Shown here piece by piece: positions 6,094 through 59,230 of a stretch of 64,000 bases of DNA (within the stretch, counting starts at the first letter, position 1; each line of letters starts with the position of its first letter). The notes beneath the pieces were generated by a model, which saw only the letters and a program-made list of their open reading frames with translations, did not search any database and was not told the origin of the DNA. The position numbers and the translations under genes were made by a program. The stretch is from Jiella pacifica (GTDB taxonomy: Bacteria; Pseudomonadota; Alphaproteobacteria; Rhizobiales; Rhizobiaceae), in the NCBI RefSeq assembly GCF_010500815.1, contig NZ_JAAAMG010000001.1, positions 248,001 through 312,000 of the forward strand, in the 5' to 3' direction.

Positions 6094-8955
6094 ATGAGCC
6101 TCATTCGCGAAATCGACTACGGCACGCCCGCCTCGAGGGCCGAGAAGACCGTTACCCTGACGATCGACGGGCAGGAGATCACGGTGCCCGAGGGCACGTC
6201 GCTGATGCGGGCGGCGATGGATGTCGGCGTCCAGGTGCCGAAGCTCTGTGCCACCGACATGATGGACGCCTTCGGCTCCTGCCGGCTCTGCGTCGTCGAG
6301 ATCGAGGGGCGGAACGGCACGCCGGCCTCCTGTACGACGCCGGTGGCGGCGGGCATGAAGGTCTCCACCCAGACCGAGCGGCTGAAGAAGATCCGCAAGG
6401 GGGTGATGGAGCTCTACATCTCCGACCATCCGCTCGACTGCCTCACCTGCGCCGCCAACGGCGACTGCGAATTGCAGGACATGGCCGGCGCCGTCGGCCT
6501 GCGCGACGTGCGCTACGGCTATGAGGGCGAGAATCATCTCGGCAAGGAGAAGGACGTCTCGAACCCCTACTTCCAGTTCGACCCGTCGAAATGCATCGTC
6601 TGTTCGCGCTGCGTCAGGGCCTGCAACGAGGTGCAGGGAACCTTCGCGCTGACGGTGGCGGGCCGCGGCTTCGATTCGATCATCTCCGCCGGTACGAGCT
6701 TCGACGACTTCTTCTCCTCCGACTGCGTCTCCTGCGGCGCCTGCGTCCAGGCCTGCCCGACCGCGACGCTGGAAGAGAAGTCGGTCATCGAGATCGGCAC
6801 GCCGGAGCATTCCGTCGTCACCACCTGCGCCTATTGCGGCGTCGGCTGCTCGTTCAAGGCTGAGATGCGCGGCGAAGAGCTGGTACGCATGGTGCCCTAC
6901 AAGGACGGCAAGGCCAATCGCGGCCATAGCTGCGTCAAGGGCCGCTTCGCGCTCGGCTATGCGACCCACAAGGACCGCGTTCTCAACCCGATGATCCGCG
7001 ACCACTACACGCTGCCGTGGCGCGAAGTCTCCTGGGAGGAGGCGCTGTCCTTCACCGCCGCGAAGATCAAGGACATCCAGGCGAAATACGGCAAGGGCGC
7101 GATGGGCGGCATCTCGTCGTCGCGCTGCACGAACGAAGAAGTCTACCTCGTCCAGAAGCTGGTGCGGGCTGGTTTCGGCAACAACAACATCGACACCTGC
7201 GCCCGCGTCTGCCACTCGCCGACGGGCTACGGCCTCAACTCGACCTTCGGCACGTCGGCGGGAACCCAGGATTTCGACTCGGTCGAGGATACTGACGTCA
7301 TCCTCGTCATCGGCGCGAACCCGACCGACGGTCATCCGGTCTTCGCCTCGCGCATGAAGAAGCGGCTGCGCGGCAAGCCGGGCGAGCCGGGTGCCAAGCT
7401 GATCGTCATCGATCCGCGCCGCATCGATCTGGTCAAGACGCCGCATGTGAAGGCCGACCATCACCTGCCGCTGAAGCCCGGCACCAACGTCGCGATGTTG
7501 ACGGCGCTCGCTCATGTCATCGTCACCGAAGGCCTTGTGAACGAGAGCTTCGTGCGCGAGCGCTGCGACTGGGACGAGTTCCAGGAATGGGCCGCCTTCG
7601 TCGCCGAGGAGCGGCATTCGCCGGAAGCGGTCGAAAGCGTCACCGGGGTCCCGGCGGCCGATGTGCGCAAGGCGGCGCGGCTCTATGCGACCGGCGGCAA
7701 CGGGGCGATCTATTACGGCCTCGGCGTCACAGAGCACAGCCAGGGCTCGACCTCGGTCATCGCCATCGCCAACCTCGCCATGGCGACCGGCAACATCGGC
7801 CGCAAGGGCGTCGGCGTGAATCCGCTGCGCGGCCAGAACAACGTCCAAGGCTCCTGCGACATGGGCTCCTTCCCCCATGAGCTGCCGGGCTATCGCCACA
7901 TTTCGATGGACGCCGTGCGCGAGACCTTCGAGGACCTTTGGGGCGTCAAGATCGACAAGGAGCCGGGGCTGCGGATCCCGAACATGTTCGACGCGGCGGT
8001 CGAGGGGACCTTCAAGGGCCTCTACTGCCAGGGCGAGGACATCCTGCAGTCCGACCCGGACACCAAGCACGTTTCGGCAGGGCTCGCGGCGCTCGAACTT
8101 CTCATCGTCCACGACCTCTTCCTGAACGAGACGGCGAACTACGCCACGGTCTTCCTGCCCGGCTCGAGCTTCCTGGAAAAGAACGGCACCTTCACCAATG
8201 CCGAACGGCGGATCAACCGCGTGCGCAAGGTGATGGCGCCGAAGAACGGCTACGAGGACTGGCAGGTCACCCAGCTGCTCGCCCAGGCGATCGGCATGGA
8301 CATGAACTATTCCCATCCCTCCGAGATCATGGCCGAGATCTCGGCGATGACGCCGTCCTTCGCCAACGTCACCTACGAGCTGCTCGACGAGAAGGGCTCG
8401 GTGCAGTGGCCCTGCAACGAGGCGCATCCGGAAGGCTCGCCGATCATGCATGTCGACGGCTTCATGCGCGGCAAGGGCAAGTTCATCATGACGGAATACG
8501 TCGCGACGGACGAGCGGACGGGGCCGCGCTTCCCGCTGCTGCTCACGACGGGCCGCATCCTCTCGCAGTACAATGTCGGTGCCCAGACGCGGCGGACCGG
8601 CAACGTCGTCTGGCACGACCAGGATCTTCTGGAGATCCACCCGCATGATGCCGAGCAGCGGGGCGTGCGCGACGGCGACTGGGTGAAGCTTGAAAGCCGC
8701 TCGGGCTCTACGGCAATCATGGCGAAGGTCACCGACCGCGTCGCTCCCGGCGTCGTCTACACGACCTTCCACCACCCGATGACGCAGGTGAACGTCATCA
8801 CCACCGACTTCTCCGACTGGGCGACCAACTGCCCCGAATACAAGGTGACGGCGGTGCAGATCTCGCCCTCCAACGGCCCGACCGAGTGGCAGGAGGACTA
8901 CCGCGAACTGACGATGGAAAGCCGGCGGATCGCGCCGGCCGAAGCGGCGGAGTAG
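6094..8955 (+). CDS. fdsA: NAD-dependent formate dehydrogenase alpha subunit (catalytic, Mo-bisMGD)
   Basis: The 953-residue catalytic subunit oxidises formate to CO2 at a bis-MGD molybdenum centre. In order: an N-terminal [2Fe-2S] ferredoxin-like domain (Cys from about 52, including FGSCRLCVVEIEG), a NuoG-like motif HPLDCLTCAANGDCELQ (about 112), two [4Fe-4S] motifs (CIVCSRCVRAC about 167; CVSCGACVQACP about 211), a further cluster CAYCGVGCSF (about 246), and the metal-ligating Cys373 followed by His374 in CARVCHSPTGYG. The C-terminus is a molybdopterin-dinucleotide-binding domain. ATG 6094 follows GGAGG at ideal distance; an ATG at 6070 lacks this. The protein is full length. Confidence 0.95.
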   Translation: MSLIREIDYGTPASRAEKTVTLTIDGQEITVPEGTSLMRAAMDVGVQVPKLCATDMMDAFGSCRLCVVEIEGRNGTPASCTTPVAAGMKVSTQTERLKKIRKGVMELYISDHPLDCLTCAANGDCELQDMAGAVGLRDVRYGYEGENHLGKEKDVSNPYFQFDPSKCIVCSRCVRACNEVQGTFALTVAGRGFDSIISAGTSFDDFFSSDCVSCGACVQACPTATLEEKSVIEIGTPEHSVVTTCAYCGVGCSFKAEMRGEELVRMVPYKDGKANRGHSCVKGRFALGYATHKDRVLNPMIRDHYTLPWREVSWEEALSFTAAKIKDIQAKYGKGAMGGISSSRCTNEEVYLVQKLVRAGFGNNNIDTCARVCHSPTGYGLNSTFGTSAGTQDFDSVEDTDVILVIGANPTDGHPVFASRMKKRLRGKPGEPGAKLIVIDPRRIDLVKTPHVKADHHLPLKPGTNVAMLTALAHVIVTEGLVNESFVRERCDWDEFQEWAAFVAEERHSPEAVESVTGVPAADVRKAARLYATGGNGAIYYGLGVTEHSQGSTSVIAIANLAMATGNIGRKGVGVNPLRGQNNVQGSCDMGSFPHELPGYRHISMDAVRETFEDLWGVKIDKEPGLRIPNMFDAAVEGTFKGLYCQGEDILQSDPDTKHVSAGLAALELLIVHDLFLNETANYATVFLPGSSFLEKNGTFTNAERRINRVRKVMAPKNGYEDWQVTQLLAQAIGMDMNYSHPSEIMAEISAMTPSFANVTYELLDEKGSVQWPCNEAHPEGSPIMHVDGFMRGKGKFIMTEYVATDERTGPRFPLLLTTGRILSQYNVGAQTRRTGNVVWHDQDLLEIHPHDAEQRGVRDGDWVKLESRSGSTAIMAKVTDRVAPGVVYTTFHHPMTQVNVITTDFSDWATNCPEYKVTAVQISPSNGPTEWQEDYRELTMESRRIAPAEAAE

Positions 8956-53237: not shown

Positions 53238-54571
53238 ATCGTGGCGACCATCGTTCTTCAGGCGGCAGGCGCCGTGATCGGCAGTTTCTTCGGCGGCCCG
53301 ATCGGTGCGGTGATCGGCCGTGCCGCCGGGGCGCTGGCGGGCTCGGCGATCGATCGTTCGCTGTTTTCGCAGACATCGTATTACGAGGGCCCGCGGCTCG
53401 AGGCCGGCCGGGTGATGACCGCCGACGAGGGCGCCGGCATCGCCCGGGTCTACGGCACCGCGCGGGTGGCCGGACAGGTCTTGTGGACGACCCGATTCGA
53501 GGAAGAGACCGAGACCGAACGGCAGGGCGGCAAGGGGGGCGGACAGTCGAGCGAGGTCACCACCTACAGCTATTTCGGCAATGTCGCGGTCGGGCTCTGC
53601 GAGGGGCCGATCGCGGCCATTCGCCGGGTCTGGGCCGACGGCGAGGAGATGGACCTCTCCGACATCGAGCTCAGGGTCTATCTCGGCGACGAAGAGCAGC
53701 TGCCCGATCCGCTGATCGAGGTGAAGCAGGGGGCGGGGAAGGCTCCCGCCTATCGCGGTCTCGCCTATCTCGTCTTCGAACGCCTCGCTTTGGAGCGATA
53801 CGGCAACCGGATCCCGCAGATAAGCTGCGAGGTGCTGCGCCCGATCGGCCGGCTGGAGGAGGAGATCCGCGCGGTCACCGTCATTCCGGGGGCGAGCGAA
53901 CACGGGCTCGATCCGGGGCGTGTGCGCGAGGAACTGGCCGAGGGCGAGGATCGGCTGATCAACCGCAACGTCCTTTACGGCGACAGCGACATCGAGGCCT
54001 CGATCGACGAACTCCGGGCGCTCTGTCCGAAGCTCGAACGGGCCGCGCTGGTCGTCTCCTGGTTCGGCGATGATCTGAGGGCCGGCCATTGCCGGATCCG
54101 GCCGAAGGTCGAGGTCCACGCCCGCCATGAGAACAAAGACTGGCGGGTGAGCGGCCTCAGCCGCGGCAATGCCGAGGTTCTCTCCCGCTTCGACGGTGGC
54201 CCCGCCTTTGGCGGCACACCGAGCGACTCAGGCGTCCTGCAGGCGATCCGAGCGCTCAAGGACCGCGGGCTGAAGGTCACGCATTATCCGTTCCTGCTCA
54301 TGGACGTTCCCCCGGGCAACGGCCTGCCCGATCCCCATGGCGAAGCCGAACAGGCGGCCTTTCCCTGGCGCGGGCGGATCAGCCTCGACGTGGCGGTGGG
54401 GCGGGCGGGCAGTACCGACGGAACCACTGCTGCCCGCGCCGCCGTCGCGGCTTTTCTCGGCACGGCCGGACCCGGGGACTTTTCGGTCTCGGGCAGCCGG
54501 GTGAATTATCACGGACCAGACGAATGGTCCTATCGGCGGATGATCTTCCATCACGCCCATCTGGCGGCGGT

Positions 54572-54578
54572 GGGGGGG
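54572..54578 (+). other. 7-G homopolymer carrying the frameshift in g15
   Basis: Seven consecutive G bases switch the reading from the upstream to the next frame. Removing one restores homologous sequence on both sides. Homopolymers are prone to both replication slippage and sequencing error, so it could be either. Confidence 0.8.
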
Positions 54579-55380
54579 CGCCGACGCCTTCGTCATCGGC
54601 TCGGAACTGCGCGGCCTGACCCGCATCCGCGACGACGAGGGCCGCTTTCCCTTCGTCGAGGGGCTGATCGCCATCGCCGCAGGGGTGAAGGAAATCCTGC
54701 CGGACGCCGTCGTGACATATGCCGCCGACTGGAGCGAATATTTCGGCTATCATCGCGACGACGGCTCCGGCGACGTCTTCTTCAATCTCGACCCGCTCTG
54801 GGCCTCGCCGGCGATCGACGCCATCGGCATCGACGACTATCTGCCGGTCACCGACTGGCGGGGCGACGAGGAAGACACCGGCGCGCCGTCGATCTACGAC
54901 CGCAAGGGCCTTGCGGCCGGCATCGCCGGCGGCGAGTATTTCGACTGGTATTATGCCAGCGAGGCCGGTCGGGCGGAGAAGATCCGCACGCCGATCACCG
55001 ACGGGGCTCATGGCAAGCCCTGGGTGTTCCGCCCCAAGGACCTGGTGTCCTGGTGGTCGAACCCGCATTTCGAGCGCCGGGGCGGCGTCGAGCTCGCCGA
55101 GCCCACGGCGTTCGTGCCGATGGCGAAGCCGATCTGGCTGACCGAGCTCGGCTGCCCGGCGATCGACAAGGGCGCCAACCAGCCGAACCTCTTCGTCGAT
55201 CCGAAATCTTCCGAGAGCGCCCTGCCGCACTTCTCGGACGGCAGCCGCGACGACCTCGTCCAGCGACGCTTCCTCGAAGCCCATCTCGACCACTGGACGC
55301 CCGGAGCGGCGGGGTTCTCCAATGCCGCCAATCCGATCTCGCCCGTCTATGGCGGGCGGATGGTGCCGGCGGATACGATC

Positions 55381-55388
55381 CACCTGTG
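55381..55388 (+). repeat. target-site duplication, left copy
   Basis: CACCTGTG, an exact 8-bp direct repeat of 59223-59230, as expected for IS1595-family insertion. Joining the two flanks with one copy kept restores the g15 reading frame. Confidence 0.95.
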
Positions 55389-55412
55389 CGCCCTTATGTA
55401 GCAGATGCACCA
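55389..55412 (+). repeat. IS1595-family left terminal inverted repeat
   Basis: All 24 bases match the reverse complement of the right end. The stop codon of the leftward 72-residue cargo gene lies inside it. Confidence 0.95.
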
Positions 55413-55612
55413 AGCGAGCGGATGACGTCCTCGATGGCCTTCCACTTGCTGGGCGGGCAAGGCTTCACACGTGAATTGGCATTATGGCGGTTAGGCGCAG
55501 ATCTGACTGGCAGACCCATTTCTGACTTCACATGCGCGATCCAGCACGTCTGTGGTGTAAACCCGTGCTCGCGCTTCACGTAGTCTTGGATTTGACCGTA
55601 TGTCGGCATCAT
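55394..55612 (-). CDS. 72-residue cargo protein of unknown function
   Basis: The protein starts MPTYGQIQDYVKREHGFTPQ and continues TCWIAHVKSEMGLPVRSAPN, a short conserved family found in many bacteria and mobile elements, in my recollection without known function. The Cys-Trp-Ile-Ala-His core and the basic RSAPNR segment are its hallmarks. It begins with two adjacent ATG codons overlapping the ImmA/IrrE stop, so it is the last gene of the leftward operon. Its TAA stop lies within the IS terminal repeat. Confidence 0.72.
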   Translation of the reverse strand: MMPTYGQIQDYVKREHGFTPQTCWIAHVKSEMGLPVRSAPNRHNANSRVKPCPPSKWKAIEDVIRSLGASAT

Positions 55613-56091
55613 GTTGGATGGCCGAGGCGGATGCCCATGGCGATCTCGGATACCTGCAGCTTGTGAGCCAATTCCGGTACCGACGTATATCCCTGTTTAG
55701 TCAACGCCTCGATCAGCGGAAGCGGCATCAAAAGATCGGCGGCGAACCGGTTCGCTTGCACCTCGACCCAGTTAGAGAGTCGGTCAGATCGAAGGAGATA
55801 ATTTTCGGTTACGCCTTCGCCAATACGATCACGGTGCAGCACATAATGCCCGATCTCGTGCGCTGCTGTGAACCTTTGGCGGACGTATGCTTCACCGTCA
55901 TCAACGAAGATAACGAAGCCAGATTCCGTCTCGTAAGTAGGACTGCGCTCGATCATGCCAGAGACGCCCTCTGGCAAGCTACGCTCATAGATCGCCAAGC
56001 CCAAGCGAGTCGCCACCTGATCAATATCGACAGGCGCGACAGCAAGCAGATCATCGATCTGCGCCCTTATGCGTGCCGGAATTGAAGTCAT
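55609..56091 (-). CDS. ImmA/IrrE family metallo-endopeptidase
   Basis: The 160-residue protein has the zinc-protease motif FTAAHEIGHYVLHRD (HExxH, about residue 77) and the following ANRFAADLLMP with the third ligand region, the ImmA/IrrE layout. ImmA-type proteases cleave a partner HTH repressor to switch on a mobile element. The start overlaps the end of the upstream coiled-coil gene by 4 bases. The obvious partner candidate is the DUF6471 HTH-like protein at the head of the same operon. Confidence 0.88.
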   Translation of the reverse strand: MTSIPARIRAQIDDLLAVAPVDIDQVATRLGLAIYERSLPEGVSGMIERSPTYETESGFVIFVDDGEAYVRQRFTAAHEIGHYVLHRDRIGEGVTENYLLRSDRLSNWVEVQANRFAADLLMPLPLIEALTKQGYTSVPELAHKLQVSEIAMGIRLGHPT

Positions 56092-56474
56092 TTTGGTTGC
56101 TCTTTCGGGTCTCGCTTGAATGTGTCTTCCTGAGGCTGCGGCTGTGGCGGTGTTACCATCACCAAAGTGCGCTCGCGGATCTGCTTTTCAACCTCTTCGG
56201 CGATTGACGCTTGGATGAAGGCTTTGCCTTCCGCAGTTTCTATATAGGACTTTATTCTCTCTTCGGCAATCTTTTCAGCTGCGCGCCGTGCGCCAAACCA
56301 GACCACCGCGAGGCCGATAAGGCCAAGAACGCTGATGCCAACAGACAAGAATGTAAGCCAGAAGTTTGCCGCGTTCAGAACTGTGTCGATCGAACTTAGA
56401 GCTTTATCGGCAAGCTCGGCAGCTTGAGCTTTTTCAGCTTCAAGCCCGTCTTTCATTTCCTGTATGGAAGCCAA
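56088..56474 (-). CDS. membrane-anchored coiled-coil cargo protein
   Basis: The 128-residue protein begins with a charged helix (IQEMKDGLEAEKAQAAELAD), has one membrane segment (LTFLSVGISVLGLIGLAVVW, about 38-60), then a long basic/acidic amphipathic helix (AAEKIAEERIKSYIETAEGK) and a Pro/Gln-rich tail. I recognise no family. It lies 9 bases after the DUF6471 gene and overlaps the peptidase gene, so the products probably work together. Confidence 0.65.
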   Translation of the reverse strand: MASIQEMKDGLEAEKAQAAELADKALSSIDTVLNAANFWLTFLSVGISVLGLIGLAVVWFGARRAAEKIAEERIKSYIETAEGKAFIQASIAEEVEKQIRERTLVMVTPPQPQPQEDTFKRDPKEQPK

Positions 56475-56483
56475 GAGCGAATC

Positions 56484-56708
56484 TCAGTCGACGGACAAAG
56501 TTGCGATCTTTAGAGCAGATAAAATCTGCAATAGAAACCCAGCCGTGAATTTTCCTCGGCTGACTTTATTCCGTAGGTTGCGCTCGTTCTCTTCAACTCC
56601 AATCTCGCGAAGCCGCTCGACAAGCTGCGCATATGTCACGCCGCGCCGGGCCATTTCGCCCCGGATGATGCCCTTTGCCTTTTCTTCCCAGTCCGTCCGT
56701 TCGACCAT
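56484..56708 (-). CDS. DUF6471 HTH-like protein
   Basis: The 74-residue protein fits the DUF6471 pattern: EKAKGIIRGEMARRGVTYAQ, LVERLREIGVEENERNLRNK and VSRGKFTAGFLLQILSALKI. The arrangement of helices is that of a small XRE-like DNA-binding domain. As the first gene of the leftward operon, divergent from the transposase, it is a good candidate for an element repressor. DNA binding is inference. Confidence 0.75.
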   Translation of the reverse strand: MVERTDWEEKAKGIIRGEMARRGVTYAQLVERLREIGVEENERNLRNKVSRGKFTAGFLLQILSALKIATLSVD

Positions 56709-56836
56709 GGTTCTCGCTCCTAGTTTACGTCGGAGCGGTATAATCGATTATAGGGCGCATGTCATCATTTAAGGTGCAAAAGCTCTTGACACGATGACAA
56801 TTTGTCATCATATCTAGTGCACACGCACTGGAAACG
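56709..56836. promoter_or_regulatory. divergent control region of the IS element
   Basis: Between the leftward DUF6471 gene and the transposase lie a perfect 14-bp palindrome TATAATCGATTATA (56739-56752), which holds a -10 element in both directions, and a second palindrome ATGACAA-T-TTGTCAT (56794-56808). The latter occupies the 17-base spacer between TTGACA (56786-56791) and CATATC (56809-56814), a likely transposase promoter. A protein bound there would block transposase transcription. Confidence 0.55.
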
Positions 56837-57799
56837 ATGACGATGGCCCAACACTTCCTCCTCTCCGCAGCCGCCCGCACCCTCTCTCTCCGCGCCATCT
56901 ACAAGGCCGGCGAGGAAAAGGCTTACGAGACGTTCAAGGCAATCCGTTGGGCTGAGACTGGTGGCAAGGCCGTTTGCCCGCGCTGCGGCTGCGTCGATAC
57001 CTACGAGATTACCACCCGCCGCCGGTTCAAGTGCGCCGCTTGTCATCATCAGTTCTCGGTGACGAGCGGCACGATCTTTCATTCCCGCAAGATGGGCTTT
57101 GTCGACCTCCTGGCAGCAATCGCGCTGTTCGTGAATGCCGTCAAAGGCGTCTCCGCTCTCCAGATGAGCCGCGACCTCGATTGCCAGTACAAGACGGCTT
57201 TCGTGCTTTGCCACAAGCTGCGCGAGGCCATGGCGAACGAAACCGCCGGATTCACCCTCGACGGCGAGGTCGAGATCGATGGCGCCTACTTCGGCGGTTC
57301 GATCAAGCCTGAGAACCGCAAGGAAGACCGCAAGGACCGCCGCTTGAAGGAACATCAGACCGGCACCCGCCGCGTTGTCATCGCCCTTCGCGAGCGCGCT
57401 GGCCGCACCCTGACCTTTGTTCGCAACTTCGAACACGAGGGCGTCGAGCTTGCCCGCCAGTGGGTCGCCAAGGGCGCCAAGATGTATGCCGACGAGGCCA
57501 CCCATTGGGACGTGCTTGAAGCGTTCTTCCCGACCGGCCGCATCAATCACTCGGAAGCCTACAGCGATTTCGACGGCAAGCACACGAACAACGCCGAGTC
57601 CTACTTCTCCCGCCTCCGCCGCATGGTGCGCGGCCAGCACCACGGCGTGTCGCACAAGTACCTCCACCAGTACGCCGCCAACGCCGCATGGTGCGAGGAT
57701 CACCGCCGCCGCGATAATGGCGCCAACGCTTTCGCGCTGGTCGGCAATGCGGTTTTGTCGCCGGTCAGCCGGGCATGGTGTGGGTATTGGCAGCGTTGA
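56837..57799 (+). CDS. IS1595-family transposase (ISXO2-like)
   Basis: The 320-residue transposase has an N-terminal zinc ribbon (CPRCG at 47-51 and CAACHHQF at 66-73), a helix-turn-helix-like stretch (AVKGVSALQMSRDLDCQYKT) and the DDE-type domain: first Asp in DGEVEIDGAYFGGS, second in MYADEATHWDVLEAFF, third block HTNNAESYFSRLRRMVRGQH. It is full length and intact, so the element may still move. It is GC-richer than some of the cargo. Confidence 0.92.
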   Translation: MTMAQHFLLSAAARTLSLRAIYKAGEEKAYETFKAIRWAETGGKAVCPRCGCVDTYEITTRRRFKCAACHHQFSVTSGTIFHSRKMGFVDLLAAIALFVNAVKGVSALQMSRDLDCQYKTAFVLCHKLREAMANETAGFTLDGEVEIDGAYFGGSIKPENRKEDRKDRRLKEHQTGTRRVVIALRERAGRTLTFVRNFEHEGVELARQWVAKGAKMYADEATHWDVLEAFFPTGRINHSEAYSDFDGKHTNNAESYFSRLRRMVRGQHHGVSHKYLHQYAANAAWCEDHRRRDNGANAFALVGNAVLSPVSRAWCGYWQR

Positions 57800-57851
57800 G
57801 TTGTATATGTCACACGTTTGGCGCTCGTACACCACGTGGAACCGATTCGTG

Positions 57852-57880
57852 TTGACATCTGTTTACGCCTTGCTTACCTG
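57852..57880 (+). promoter_or_regulatory. candidate promoter of the HicA/HicB-like pair
   Basis: A perfect TTGACA is followed after 17 bases by TACCTG, a weak -10, ending 11 bases before the first ATG. The leader would be very short. Confidence 0.35.
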
Positions 57881-57891
57881 GGTAGCATCTA

Positions 57892-58140
57892 ATGGCGGTT
57901 AGAACGAGGCACCCCAACAAGGAGGTTGAGGATGCAGTCGCGTACGCTGAATCACAAAAATGGACCTTTCGGAAAATGGGGCATTGGGGTCGCTTGTTTT
58001 GTTCGCAAGCGGATCGCGACGGCTGCCAATTTGGCGTCAGCGGCACCCCGCGAGATGGCGATGTCCATGCTCGCCAAATAATCCGAGCGGTAGATAGATG
58101 CCCACACCAACTAAGGGAGCATGACAATGAAAACATTTGA
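57892..58140 (+). CDS. HicA-like candidate toxin
   Basis: The 82-residue protein reads RTRHPNKEVEDAVAYAESQK, then WTFRKMGHWGRLFC, GVSGTPRDGDVHARQIIRAV. It belongs to a recurrent family of small proteins (N-terminal helix, G-H-x-W-G-R-L strand, terminal helix with HARQIIR) always paired with a larger DNA-binding partner. The topology recalls the HicA double-stranded-RNA-binding fold with its Gly-x-His. Toxin activity is inference. It overlaps the next gene by 14 bases. Confidence 0.6.
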   Translation: MAVRTRHPNKEVEDAVAYAESQKWTFRKMGHWGRLFCSQADRDGCQFGVSGTPRDGDVHARQIIRAVDRCPHQLREHDNENI

Positions 58141-58657
58141 ATTTAGTGTTATCGCTTCTGGTCTTGACCCTAGCGCAGATGACTACGAATCCCGCTTCTA
58201 CGATCATGGCTGCGACGACGCTTTAGTCTCCTTTCAAAAGGGCCATACGATCGTGGATTTTGCGCGAGAAGCTGAATCTATCTCTGACGCTATTTCGTCG
58301 GCGGTCGCGGATGTGGTTCGTGCCGGTGGAACAATTAATAGGATTGAACCAGATCCTCTTGTGAGCCTTAGTGACATAGCTACCCGAGCTAACATGAGCC
58401 GGGCCGTCGTTACTCAGTACGCAAAAGGGAATCGACGCGCAGCTTTCCCTGCTCCTGTGGCTCGTGTCACTACCAGTAGCCCATTGTGGGAGTGGGCCAG
58501 TGTTGCTTGCTGGCTTTGGAAAGAGGATAAACTTTCAAAAGCCGACGCGATTAATGCTCAGGCTGTGAAAATAGCTAATGGTTTAGTTCAGACTGGGAAC
58601 TTGGAACTTGATTGCGTCTTGAACGATCGCGTCCGAGAATTCGAACACAATTTATAA
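58127..58657 (+). CDS. HicB-like partner with HTH domain (candidate antitoxin)
   Basis: The 176-residue protein has an N-terminal alpha/beta domain (MKTFEFSVIASGLDPSADDY, GCDDALVSFQKGHTIVDFAR, EAESISDAISSAVADVVRAG) and a C-terminal MerR/XRE-like HTH (SLSDIATRANMSRAVVTQYA). This is the standard partner of the preceding small protein in many genomes; it would bind toxin and operator. ATG 58127 lies 8 bases after GGGAG and is preferred to ATG 58121. A perfect terminator hairpin follows the stop. Confidence 0.65.
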   Translation: MKTFEFSVIASGLDPSADDYESRFYDHGCDDALVSFQKGHTIVDFAREAESISDAISSAVADVVRAGGTINRIEPDPLVSLSDIATRANMSRAVVTQYAKGNRRAAFPAPVARVTTSSPLWEWASVACWLWKEDKLSKADAINAQAVKIANGLVQTGNLELDCVLNDRVREFEHNL

Positions 58658-58687
58658 AAGAAAGCCCCGCTCCGGCTGGGCTTTCTT
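58658..58687. terminator. bidirectional terminator between convergent cargo genes
   Basis: AAGAAAGCCC and GGGCTTTCTT form a perfect 10-bp stem (10-base loop) with A-rich and T-rich outer ends, directly after the HicB-like stop and 6 bases before the stop of the leftward gene. It suits termination in both directions. Confidence 0.8.
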
Positions 58688-58693
58688 GCCTGC

Positions 58694-59155
58694 CTACCCT
58701 GCCCGCCACATCCTCGCATCCCCTCGCCATCCGTCCCGCTTCACACCGCCATGGTGCTCCATACGGTGGAGGATCTTGCGCACGGCTGATAGGACGGCTT
58801 GCGGCTCTGGCTCGTGCTCGTCGTTCAGCTTGAACAGCGGCGTGACTGCTTCTGCAATCTCCGTGGTCGTCACGGCGCCACGTTCGCGCATGACGGCGAA
58901 GATGGCGCTTCGCCTAGCTTGAACGTCAGCGCGGCCAACGCGCGGCGTGGTGGCCCGTTGTAGCGGCTGGATGGTATGAGCGTCGGTTACGCCGAACATC
59001 GCGAGCACGGCGTCTAGGTGGCCAAGGTCGCGGTCTATCGCTGCCAGGTGCTCAAGGGCCTTCAACCGTTCGCCGGCTTTCTCTGCCCGCTTGGTCTTCA
59101 ATCCGGCGATTGTCAGCTTGTAGGAATCGGTACGGGTTGCGCGGTGCTTTGTCAT
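58694..59155 (-). CDS. winged-helix-like cargo protein of unknown function
   Basis: The 153-residue protein has a helical N-terminal half (LKTKRAEKAGERLKALEHLA, AIDRDLGHLDAVLAMFG) and a second half shaped like a winged helix (AIFAVMRERGAVTTTEIAEA, SAVRKILHRMEHHGGVKRDG). It starts 44 bases inside the right IS end and is transcribed into the element. I know no named family; it may bind DNA. Confidence 0.6.
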   Translation of the reverse strand: MTKHRATRTDSYKLTIAGLKTKRAEKAGERLKALEHLAAIDRDLGHLDAVLAMFGVTDAHTIQPLQRATTPRVGRADVQARRSAIFAVMRERGAVTTTEIAEAVTPLFKLNDEHEPEPQAVLSAVRKILHRMEHHGGVKRDGWRGDARMWRAG

Positions 59156-59198
59156 GCCGCATCATCGCGCTAGGCCGCTGTTTCGCCTACCGTTTTGA

Positions 59199-59222
59199 TG
59201 GTGCATCTGCTACATAAGGGCG
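59199..59222 (-). repeat. IS1595-family right terminal inverted repeat
   Basis: 24 bases, exactly the reverse complement of the left end. Confidence 0.95.
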
Positions 59223-59230
59223 CACCTGTG
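59223..59230 (+). repeat. target-site duplication, right copy
   Basis: CACCTGTG, identical to 55381-55388. Confidence 0.95.

Follow-up and report, generated by a model that had tools for sequence, protein, structure and literature searches.

Some insertion sequences (ISs) of the IS1595 family carry passenger genes. Such elements, termed "tIS", include MTnSag1 and tISCpe8 (PMC11891212, PMC8101967, PMC5704250), and ISNha5 is said in one of these sources to carry transcription regulators (PMC11891212). Here we analyse an IS1595-type element in a 64,000-nucleotide stretch of Jiella pacifica DNA (contig NZ_JAAAMG010000001.1, positions 248,001 to 312,000), hereafter the window. The element spans 55,389–59,222 of the window (3,834 bp) and lies inside g15, a gene of a gene transfer agent (GTA). 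We consider it likely that this element belongs to a modular IS1595-type family in which a protein with the DUF6471 domain represses the transposase and two cargo slots can be refilled. The ends, the layout, the turnover of cargo and the covariation of DUF6471 with operator-like sites are read from the sequences themselves.

An earlier note, made from the letters of the window, had described a recent cargo-carrying IS1595 insertion in g15 with perfect 24-bp inverted repeats and an exact 8-bp duplication, and the coordinates bear this out. The left terminal inverted repeat (55,389–55,412, plus strand) matches the right one (59,199–59,222, minus strand) perfectly, and exact copies of the target duplication CACCTGTG stand at 55,381–55,388 and 59,223–59,230. 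As the note also had it, the transposase reading frame (56,837–57,799, plus strand) is uninterrupted and matches IS1595 models, and seven further open reading frames (ORFs) lie within the element. At the insertion point g15 is uninterrupted in all nine other genomes of the genus searched, and the empty site rejoins at the duplication. Both the element and its end, the latter searched with up to three mismatches, occur only once in the host genome.

Joining the flanks with one copy of the duplication restores the g15 frame at ...DTIHLWTWDARPFPAFP..., as the note had described, but the gene is not intact elsewhere. Roughly 800 bp upstream of the insertion point (window about 54,570–54,590), a frameshift in a run of G appears as a change of frame between the ORFs at 53,241 and 54,685; the eight congeners aligned there, of the nine, are all in frame. 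This frameshift, which is independent of the insertion, could reflect genuine decay or a fault in the assembly, and the element is therefore not the sole damage to g15. The same genome also holds a distant g15-like gene (L157, G000:C8:98014-99600; 31% identity, open frame of 1,324 aa), so its GTA- or phage-like tail loci number at least two.

We scanned public genomes with the window transposase and obtained 183 relatives, of which the best 80 (at least 67% identity) were analysed. We called an element bounded when an end pair (at most 4 mismatches in 20) and an exact 8-bp duplication surrounded the transposase. This held for 64 of the 80 loci, with no more than 3 mismatches in the end pairs found, so the other copies with like ends that the earlier note had proposed looking for do exist. 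Among the 16 unbounded loci, 12 are much shortened by a contig end and one slightly, while three are full length without ends found. The 64 bounded relatives and the window copy make up the 65 elements considered below.

These elements have a common layout: left end, slot A, DUF6471 (minus strand), transposase (plus strand), slot B, F2 (minus strand), right end. DUF6471 is present in all 65 and F2 in 64, which makes both of them core genes and confines cargo to the two slots; the earlier note had listed them, as "HTH" and "winged helix", with the cargo. Its small mobile island does carry cargo, as proposed, but is not a one-off, since a whole family re-stocks two fixed slots. Elements measure 2,346–5,064 bp (median 3,448), and their ends mostly read CGGCCTTATG, the window end being CGCCCTTATG. 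Target duplications follow the palindromic pattern S-A-N-A-T-N-T-S (n = 76: the 65 elements plus 11 loci from viral contigs, with two contigs each counted twice and one locus, L189, having other ends). To go by the description of the group, the family probably belongs to the ISNha5 group of IS1595, which has CGGnnTT ends, passenger genes and lengths of 3.4–7.9 kb, against 2.3–5.1 kb here.

The transposase (56,837–57,799, plus strand) is an IS1595-family DDE enzyme with an N-terminal zinc ribbon, matching PF12762 (5.8e-37), PF12760 (2e-14) and NF033547 (1.7e-45) above cut-off. With the terminal inverted repeats and the 8-bp duplication, this domain composition places the element in IS1595. Positions invariant in the 65 elements include C47, C50, C66, C69, D148, D219, E254 and R261. 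Median pairwise identity is 0.81 for the transposase, 0.64 for DUF6471 and 0.25 for F2. Seven more distant loci were also enlarged; five have ends matching over the first 20 nt together with a duplication, all five have F2, and four of the seven loci have DUF6471. A plasmid search matched 252 records, seven of them at 60–80% identity.

The DUF6471 gene (56,484–56,708, minus strand) encodes a predicted helix-turn-helix (HTH) repressor of the transposase. It matches PF20075 at 2.3e-31 (107.9 bits against a gathering score of 26.8), and its predicted structure comprises four helices with an HTH (predicted local distance difference test, pLDDT, 92.8). The best matches of this model in the Protein Data Bank (PDB), found with Foldseek, are HTH proteins such as HipB, ClgR and the restriction controller C.Esp1396I (probability 0.97–0.99, E at least 0.28); neither this model nor that of F2 has a match at E ≤ 0.001, so that both comparisons speak to fold class only. 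We found no paper on DUF6471 in the literature searched.

The interval between DUF6471 and the transposase holds four like 17-nt sites arranged as two inverted pairs. Site 1 (56,761–56,777, plus strand) is followed by site 2 (56,782–56,798, minus strand), which lies over a −35 hexamer TTGACA (56,786–56,791). Site 3 (56,804–56,820, plus strand) covers a −10-like hexamer (56,809–56,814), spaced 17 nt from the −35, and site 4 (56,825–56,841, minus strand) covers the transposase start codon. The window array scores 79, whereas 195 base shuffles averaged 44.7 and reached 54 at most. Scores exceed the shuffle maximum in 40 of the 65 elements and the 99th percentile in 53. Taken together, these features suggest that DUF6471 most likely represses the transposase by binding four sites over its promoter and start codon.

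Operator-like sites and DUF6471 vary together. Among 33 elements with standard spacing and a score of at least 52, similarity of the operators tracks that of DUF6471 (r = 0.66, 0 of 999 permutations), and does so with the transposase removed (0.65). With DUF6471 removed, operator similarity does not track the transposase (−0.06, 802 of 999). One residue accompanies one base: arginine at residue 46 of DUF6471 goes with C as the last base of site 3 in 24 of 24 elements, and alanine never does (9 of 9; Fisher 2.6e-8, computed ignoring relatedness). The DUF6471 tree requires three changes of residue 46, at least two of them forced. Searching all 65 elements for a single inverted pair gave 35 pairs with a spacer of 4, the remaining 30 having other spacers that were left uncounted; of these 35, 30 combine arginine with C at both site ends, two combine arginine with C at neither end, and three combine alanine with C at neither.

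DUF6471 might instead belong to the machinery of transposition or act as an antitoxin-like partner, with the repeated sites bound by the transposase or F2. In favour of such a role, it nearly always adjoins the transposase (29 of 30 order-level loci). We nevertheless think this unlikely, given that the sites lie over the promoter and track DUF6471 rather than the transposase, and that a single DUF6471 residue matches a single base.

Copies sharing a genome were compared in the three genomes where two good ones were at hand, namely G276, G257 and Roseovarius aestuarii (L069 and L078). The recognition-helix sequence of DUF6471 differs between the copies in all three pairs, and the operators differ too in both pairs with readable operators (G257 and R. 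aestuarii). The two R. aestuarii transposases are 95% identical; those of the G276 and G257 pairs are clearly diverged. These differences fit immunity classes, with three cases and no control. A fourth candidate pair, G488, turned out to be one copy plus a remnant. In G488 a second, partial DUF6471 of another type (L116, 508–696; also in L239) stands beside a complete one and is perhaps what is left of an older element.

We also surveyed DUF6471 beyond the 65 elements. At order level, DUF6471 occurs in 34 of 397 genomes (39 hits), and 29 of the 30 loci fetched have a transposase-profile match, one (L131) only as weak fragments. At class level it occurs in 24 of 385 genomes (27 hits). A divergent transposase is present at 15 of the 25 loci newly fetched there; the other 10 are mostly hits that are weak, partial or interrupted by stops. 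DUF6471 is absent from all 14 control genomes. Of 40 DUF6471 loci on viral contigs, 22 lie near a transposase match and nine have complete ends, one of them (L189) of another kind. Contigs classified as viral therefore carry elements too, and DUF6471 does not occur in elements exclusively. L193, L194, L199, L200 and other viral-contig loci have DUF6471 without a nearby transposase match, and L193 and L194 keep F2. Such loci may be decayed elements or repressors adopted by phages.

Slot A of the window holds three ORFs, all on the minus strand. A 72-aa ORF (55,394–55,612) ends inside the left terminal repeat and overlaps the next gene by 4 nt; it has no family match reaching cut-off in Pfam, NCBIfam and PADLOC scans. 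Next comes an ImmA/IrrE-type metallopeptidase of the M78 family with a HEIGH motif (55,609–56,091; PF06114 9.1e-17, PADLOC capP 4e-28), then a protein with one membrane segment predicted by hydropathy (56,088–56,474) and no Pfam family match at E ≤ 1. Slot B holds PDC-M06A (57,892–58,140, plus strand; 82 aa, PADLOC 4.6e-19) and, overlapping it, PDC-M06B (58,121–58,657, plus strand; 178 aa, 2.7e-26), which together are a candidate phage-defence system with both components present and adjacent. The earlier note had read this pair as HicA/B-like, but it has no Pfam or NCBIfam HicA or HicB match at E ≤ 1 and matches both PDC-M06 models. Apart from the capP-like match of the protease, no scanned protein of the element (the transposase was not among them) matches a PADLOC model of CBASS, and no relaxase was recognised among its Pfam and NCBIfam matches.

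Across the family the two slots are stocked differently. Slot B contains 107 ORFs, of which the 100 of at least 60 aa were scanned. Pfam matches include SocA/Panacea (6), KilA-N (4), Peptidase_M78 (3) and Bro-N, HicA, RelE and MqsA (2 each), among others; PADLOC matches, among the 25 of 32 families listed, include BstA (6), capP (3), PDC-M06B (2) and PDC-M06A (1). A recognised toxin-antitoxin or defence-candidate gene is thus found in slot B of at least 21 of the 65 elements (BstA 6, SocA 6, M78 3, HicA 2, RelE 2, PDC-M06B 2), 14 of them checked singly and seven taken from family tallies and clusters. The BstA matches range from 9.5e-118 to 7.6e-08, and most are distant, as five of the six are weaker than or near 1e-15. 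A HicA presumed in L056 gave no match. Slot A (81 ORFs scanned) yielded M78 (2), DUF7931 (2) and SocA (1) in Pfam and PDC-S42 (3) in PADLOC. Simple hydropathy predicts a membrane segment in one or more slot A ORFs for 56 of 65 elements; for slot B this is so in 10 of the 59 elements that have an ORF there.

As a control we scanned 120 ORFs of 60–330 aa flanking the elements, one per element side where available. PADLOC gave 11 families with at most two members each, mostly mad genes and ATPases, and none of BstA, capP or PDC-M06 among the 120. Pfam gave 74 families; most of the 25 listed are metabolic or other host families, and none of those 25 is a toxin-antitoxin family. In the elements themselves, we discounted ORFs on the plus strand opposite the F3 family as shadows: in four F3 pairs, differences fall mostly at the third codon position of the frame on the minus strand (500, compared with 330 and 254).

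The slot A protease raises another explanation, namely that it is the control switch of the element, cleaving DUF6471 under stress, so that slot A would be regulatory rather than cargo. ImmA cleaves ImmR of ICEBs1, and CapP cleaves CapH of CBASS; the protease gene here lies downstream of DUF6471 on the same strand and has the capP match given above. An M78 protein, however, occurs in slot A of only two elements (81 ORFs) and in slot B of three others, and DUF6471 is retained in elements without it. Moreover, the protease adjoins a membrane protein also in L057 (slot A) and in L049 and L108 (slot B), though not in L077, and the two look like a portable module. We judge such a switch improbable.

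Slot contents turn over almost completely. In Mantel tests over 64 elements, family sharing shows no clear dependence on transposase identity in slot A (r = 0.107, 62 of 999) and slot B (r = 0.024, 223 of 999); identities of F2 and DUF6471 follow it (r = 0.33 and 0.32, 0 of 999 each). Of the 12 pairs whose transposases reach 95% identity, 25% have a slot A family in common and 17% a slot B family. In every one of the 30 closest pairs, the DNA match around the transposase breaks off −4 to +11 nt from its stop codon. Between the window copy and that of J. pelagia (L036), whose transposases are 95% identical, likeness is limited to 27 bp at the left end, some 108 bp of DUF6471 (72%), the transposase (90%) and 70 bp at the right end. 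G+C content is 0.54 and 0.51 in the window cargo, 0.63 in the transposase and F2, and 0.67 in the rest of the window. Slot genes look dispensable, as their contents vary while the transposase stays.

We also looked for traces of cargo exchange. Internal end-like sequences, considered as scars of stepwise capture, are absent from the 65 elements at up to 2 mismatches in 14 nt, and a 12-nt repeat at 56,060 with 10 nt in common with the end was treated as chance. Inspection by eye showed no conserved recombination site after the transposase stop, and no consistent leader ORF was found at the left end, where a CTCCAC motif occurs in 19 of 65 elements. F2 alleles are not linked to the cargo of slot B (555 of 999) or slot A (405 of 999), nor are DUF6471 alleles to slot B (144 of 999); DUF6471 alleles and slot A cargo are weakly linked (9 of 999). 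That the element is a simple IS with randomly acquired neighbouring host genes, its layout functionally meaningless, is very improbable: cargo does vary, and IS1595 elements with passenger genes are known (PMC11891212, PMC5704250), but order, orientation and the two slots are identical in 65 elements, and the cargo families differ in kind from the flanking ORFs among the families listed.

The remaining core gene, F2 (58,694–59,155, minus strand), has its start codon beside the right end. Its model (pLDDT 87.6) combines a winged helix with a long helix at the N-terminus, and Foldseek returns varied winged-helix PDB proteins such as TubR, Fur and MarR (best E 5.5e-03). Position and predicted fold make F2 a probable second regulator that binds DNA, or else an accessory protein with a role near the right end. 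A GTGAATC word recurs between the end repeat and the F2 start (GATTCAC in 25 of 63; shuffles gave no more than 5) and is a possible F2 autoregulatory site. Between F2 and the convergent PDC-M06B gene lies a short G+C-rich inverted repeat (58,658–58,687) whose hairpin is terminator-like. L057 is the only one of the 65 elements without F2; a 141-aa protein takes its place (6641–7066), with a weak match to a PBECR3 nuclease (E 0.0045) below cut-off. In L079, the stretch from F2 to the right end contains ORFs that match transposases of the IS4/IS5 type (7615–8422), probably a nested insertion.

Several observations weigh against the reading of a DUF6471-repressed family with refillable slots. No transposase match stands near DUF6471 at 18 of the 40 viral-contig loci and 10 of the 25 class-level loci, some of them in cut or decayed sequence. 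Two bounded distant elements, L160 and L161, have F2 and no DUF6471 match, and DUF6471 is therefore not universal. In 12 of the 65 elements, including the nearest relative L036 (score 47), the array is not above the 99th percentile; the standard site spacing (5,4,4 or 4,5,4) is found in only 35 of 65; and the array-score shuffles preserved base composition only. Identities of F2 and DUF6471 track the transposase only moderately (r about 0.33). In about two thirds of elements, slot B has no gene recognised as belonging to defence or toxin-antitoxin systems, the majority of slot A proteins are without a match, and the flanking control has defence-model matches of its own, such as mad2 (6.1e-20) and mad3 (in two ORFs).

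With these points weighed, we still favour that reading, in which a core of terminal repeats, DDE transposase, DUF6471 and the winged-helix gene F2 persists while its cargo changes. DUF6471, transcribed away from the transposase, would bind the four like sites and keep transposition low, and its DNA specificity would have diversified along with the operators into repressor classes. The two slots, one left of DUF6471 and the other between the transposase and F2, are refilled again and again, slot A mostly with membrane proteins and slot B often with toxin-antitoxin or defence-candidate modules. In the window these are the ImmA-type protease with a membrane protein and PDC-M06A/B. Cargo probably aids persistence of the element through addiction, phage defence or both. 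Repression, the role of F2, defence or addiction, and the manner of cargo swapping are what we infer from these patterns.

DUF6471 thereby gains a testable function, that of a transposase repressor with a readable DNA code, and the family offers a 2–5 kb element that retains its transposase during almost complete cargo turnover. The ends and the two-slot reading give a simple route to many small unknown genes with a likely role in defence or addiction, and co-resident copies of different repressor class open transposon immunity to study as in temperate phages. More tentatively, at somewhat short of even odds in our estimation, these could be minimal phage-like mosaic transposons, with DUF6471 immunity classes and a chassis for swapped toxin-antitoxin or anti-phage modules. 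If so, differently repressed copies could coexist in one cell, and each element would be a miniature mobile defence island, the family a hunting ground for unknown defence genes, and repression the first function for DUF6471.

How does this family compare with described systems? In the literature searched, the two-slot layout, the cargo turnover and the operator covariation are undescribed, although a 2009 IS1595 paper may mention matching regulators; nor did we find there a paper naming PDC-M06, the PADLOC candidate system that the window pair resembles in having both components, adjacent and overlapping. DUF6471 shares a fold class with HipB, ClgR and C.Esp1396I (template modelling score up to about 0.7); identities of 16–26% among the matches listed, with E of 0.28 or worse, indicate fold likeness rather than kinship. 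Like IS1595, ISNha5 and tIS elements, the window family has an IS1595-type DDE transposase, inverted ends of about 24–25 bp, an 8-bp duplication and passenger genes. To these it adds features of which the descriptions consulted say nothing: a core of three constant genes, two slots whose cargo turns over nearly completely, and a transposase promoter with a covarying set of predicted repressor and operators. Its cargo includes toxin-antitoxin and defence genes, as that of Tn7-like transposons does (PMC8649781), but its single-gene transposition machinery is unrelated to theirs, and at 2.3–5.1 kb it carries about one small module per slot. In encoding a repressor of its own transposition genes, the family would resemble the type V-K CRISPR-associated transposons, whose CvkR is an experimentally shown repressor of MerR type, whereas DUF6471 is a small four-helix HTH protein by prediction (PMC9938897).

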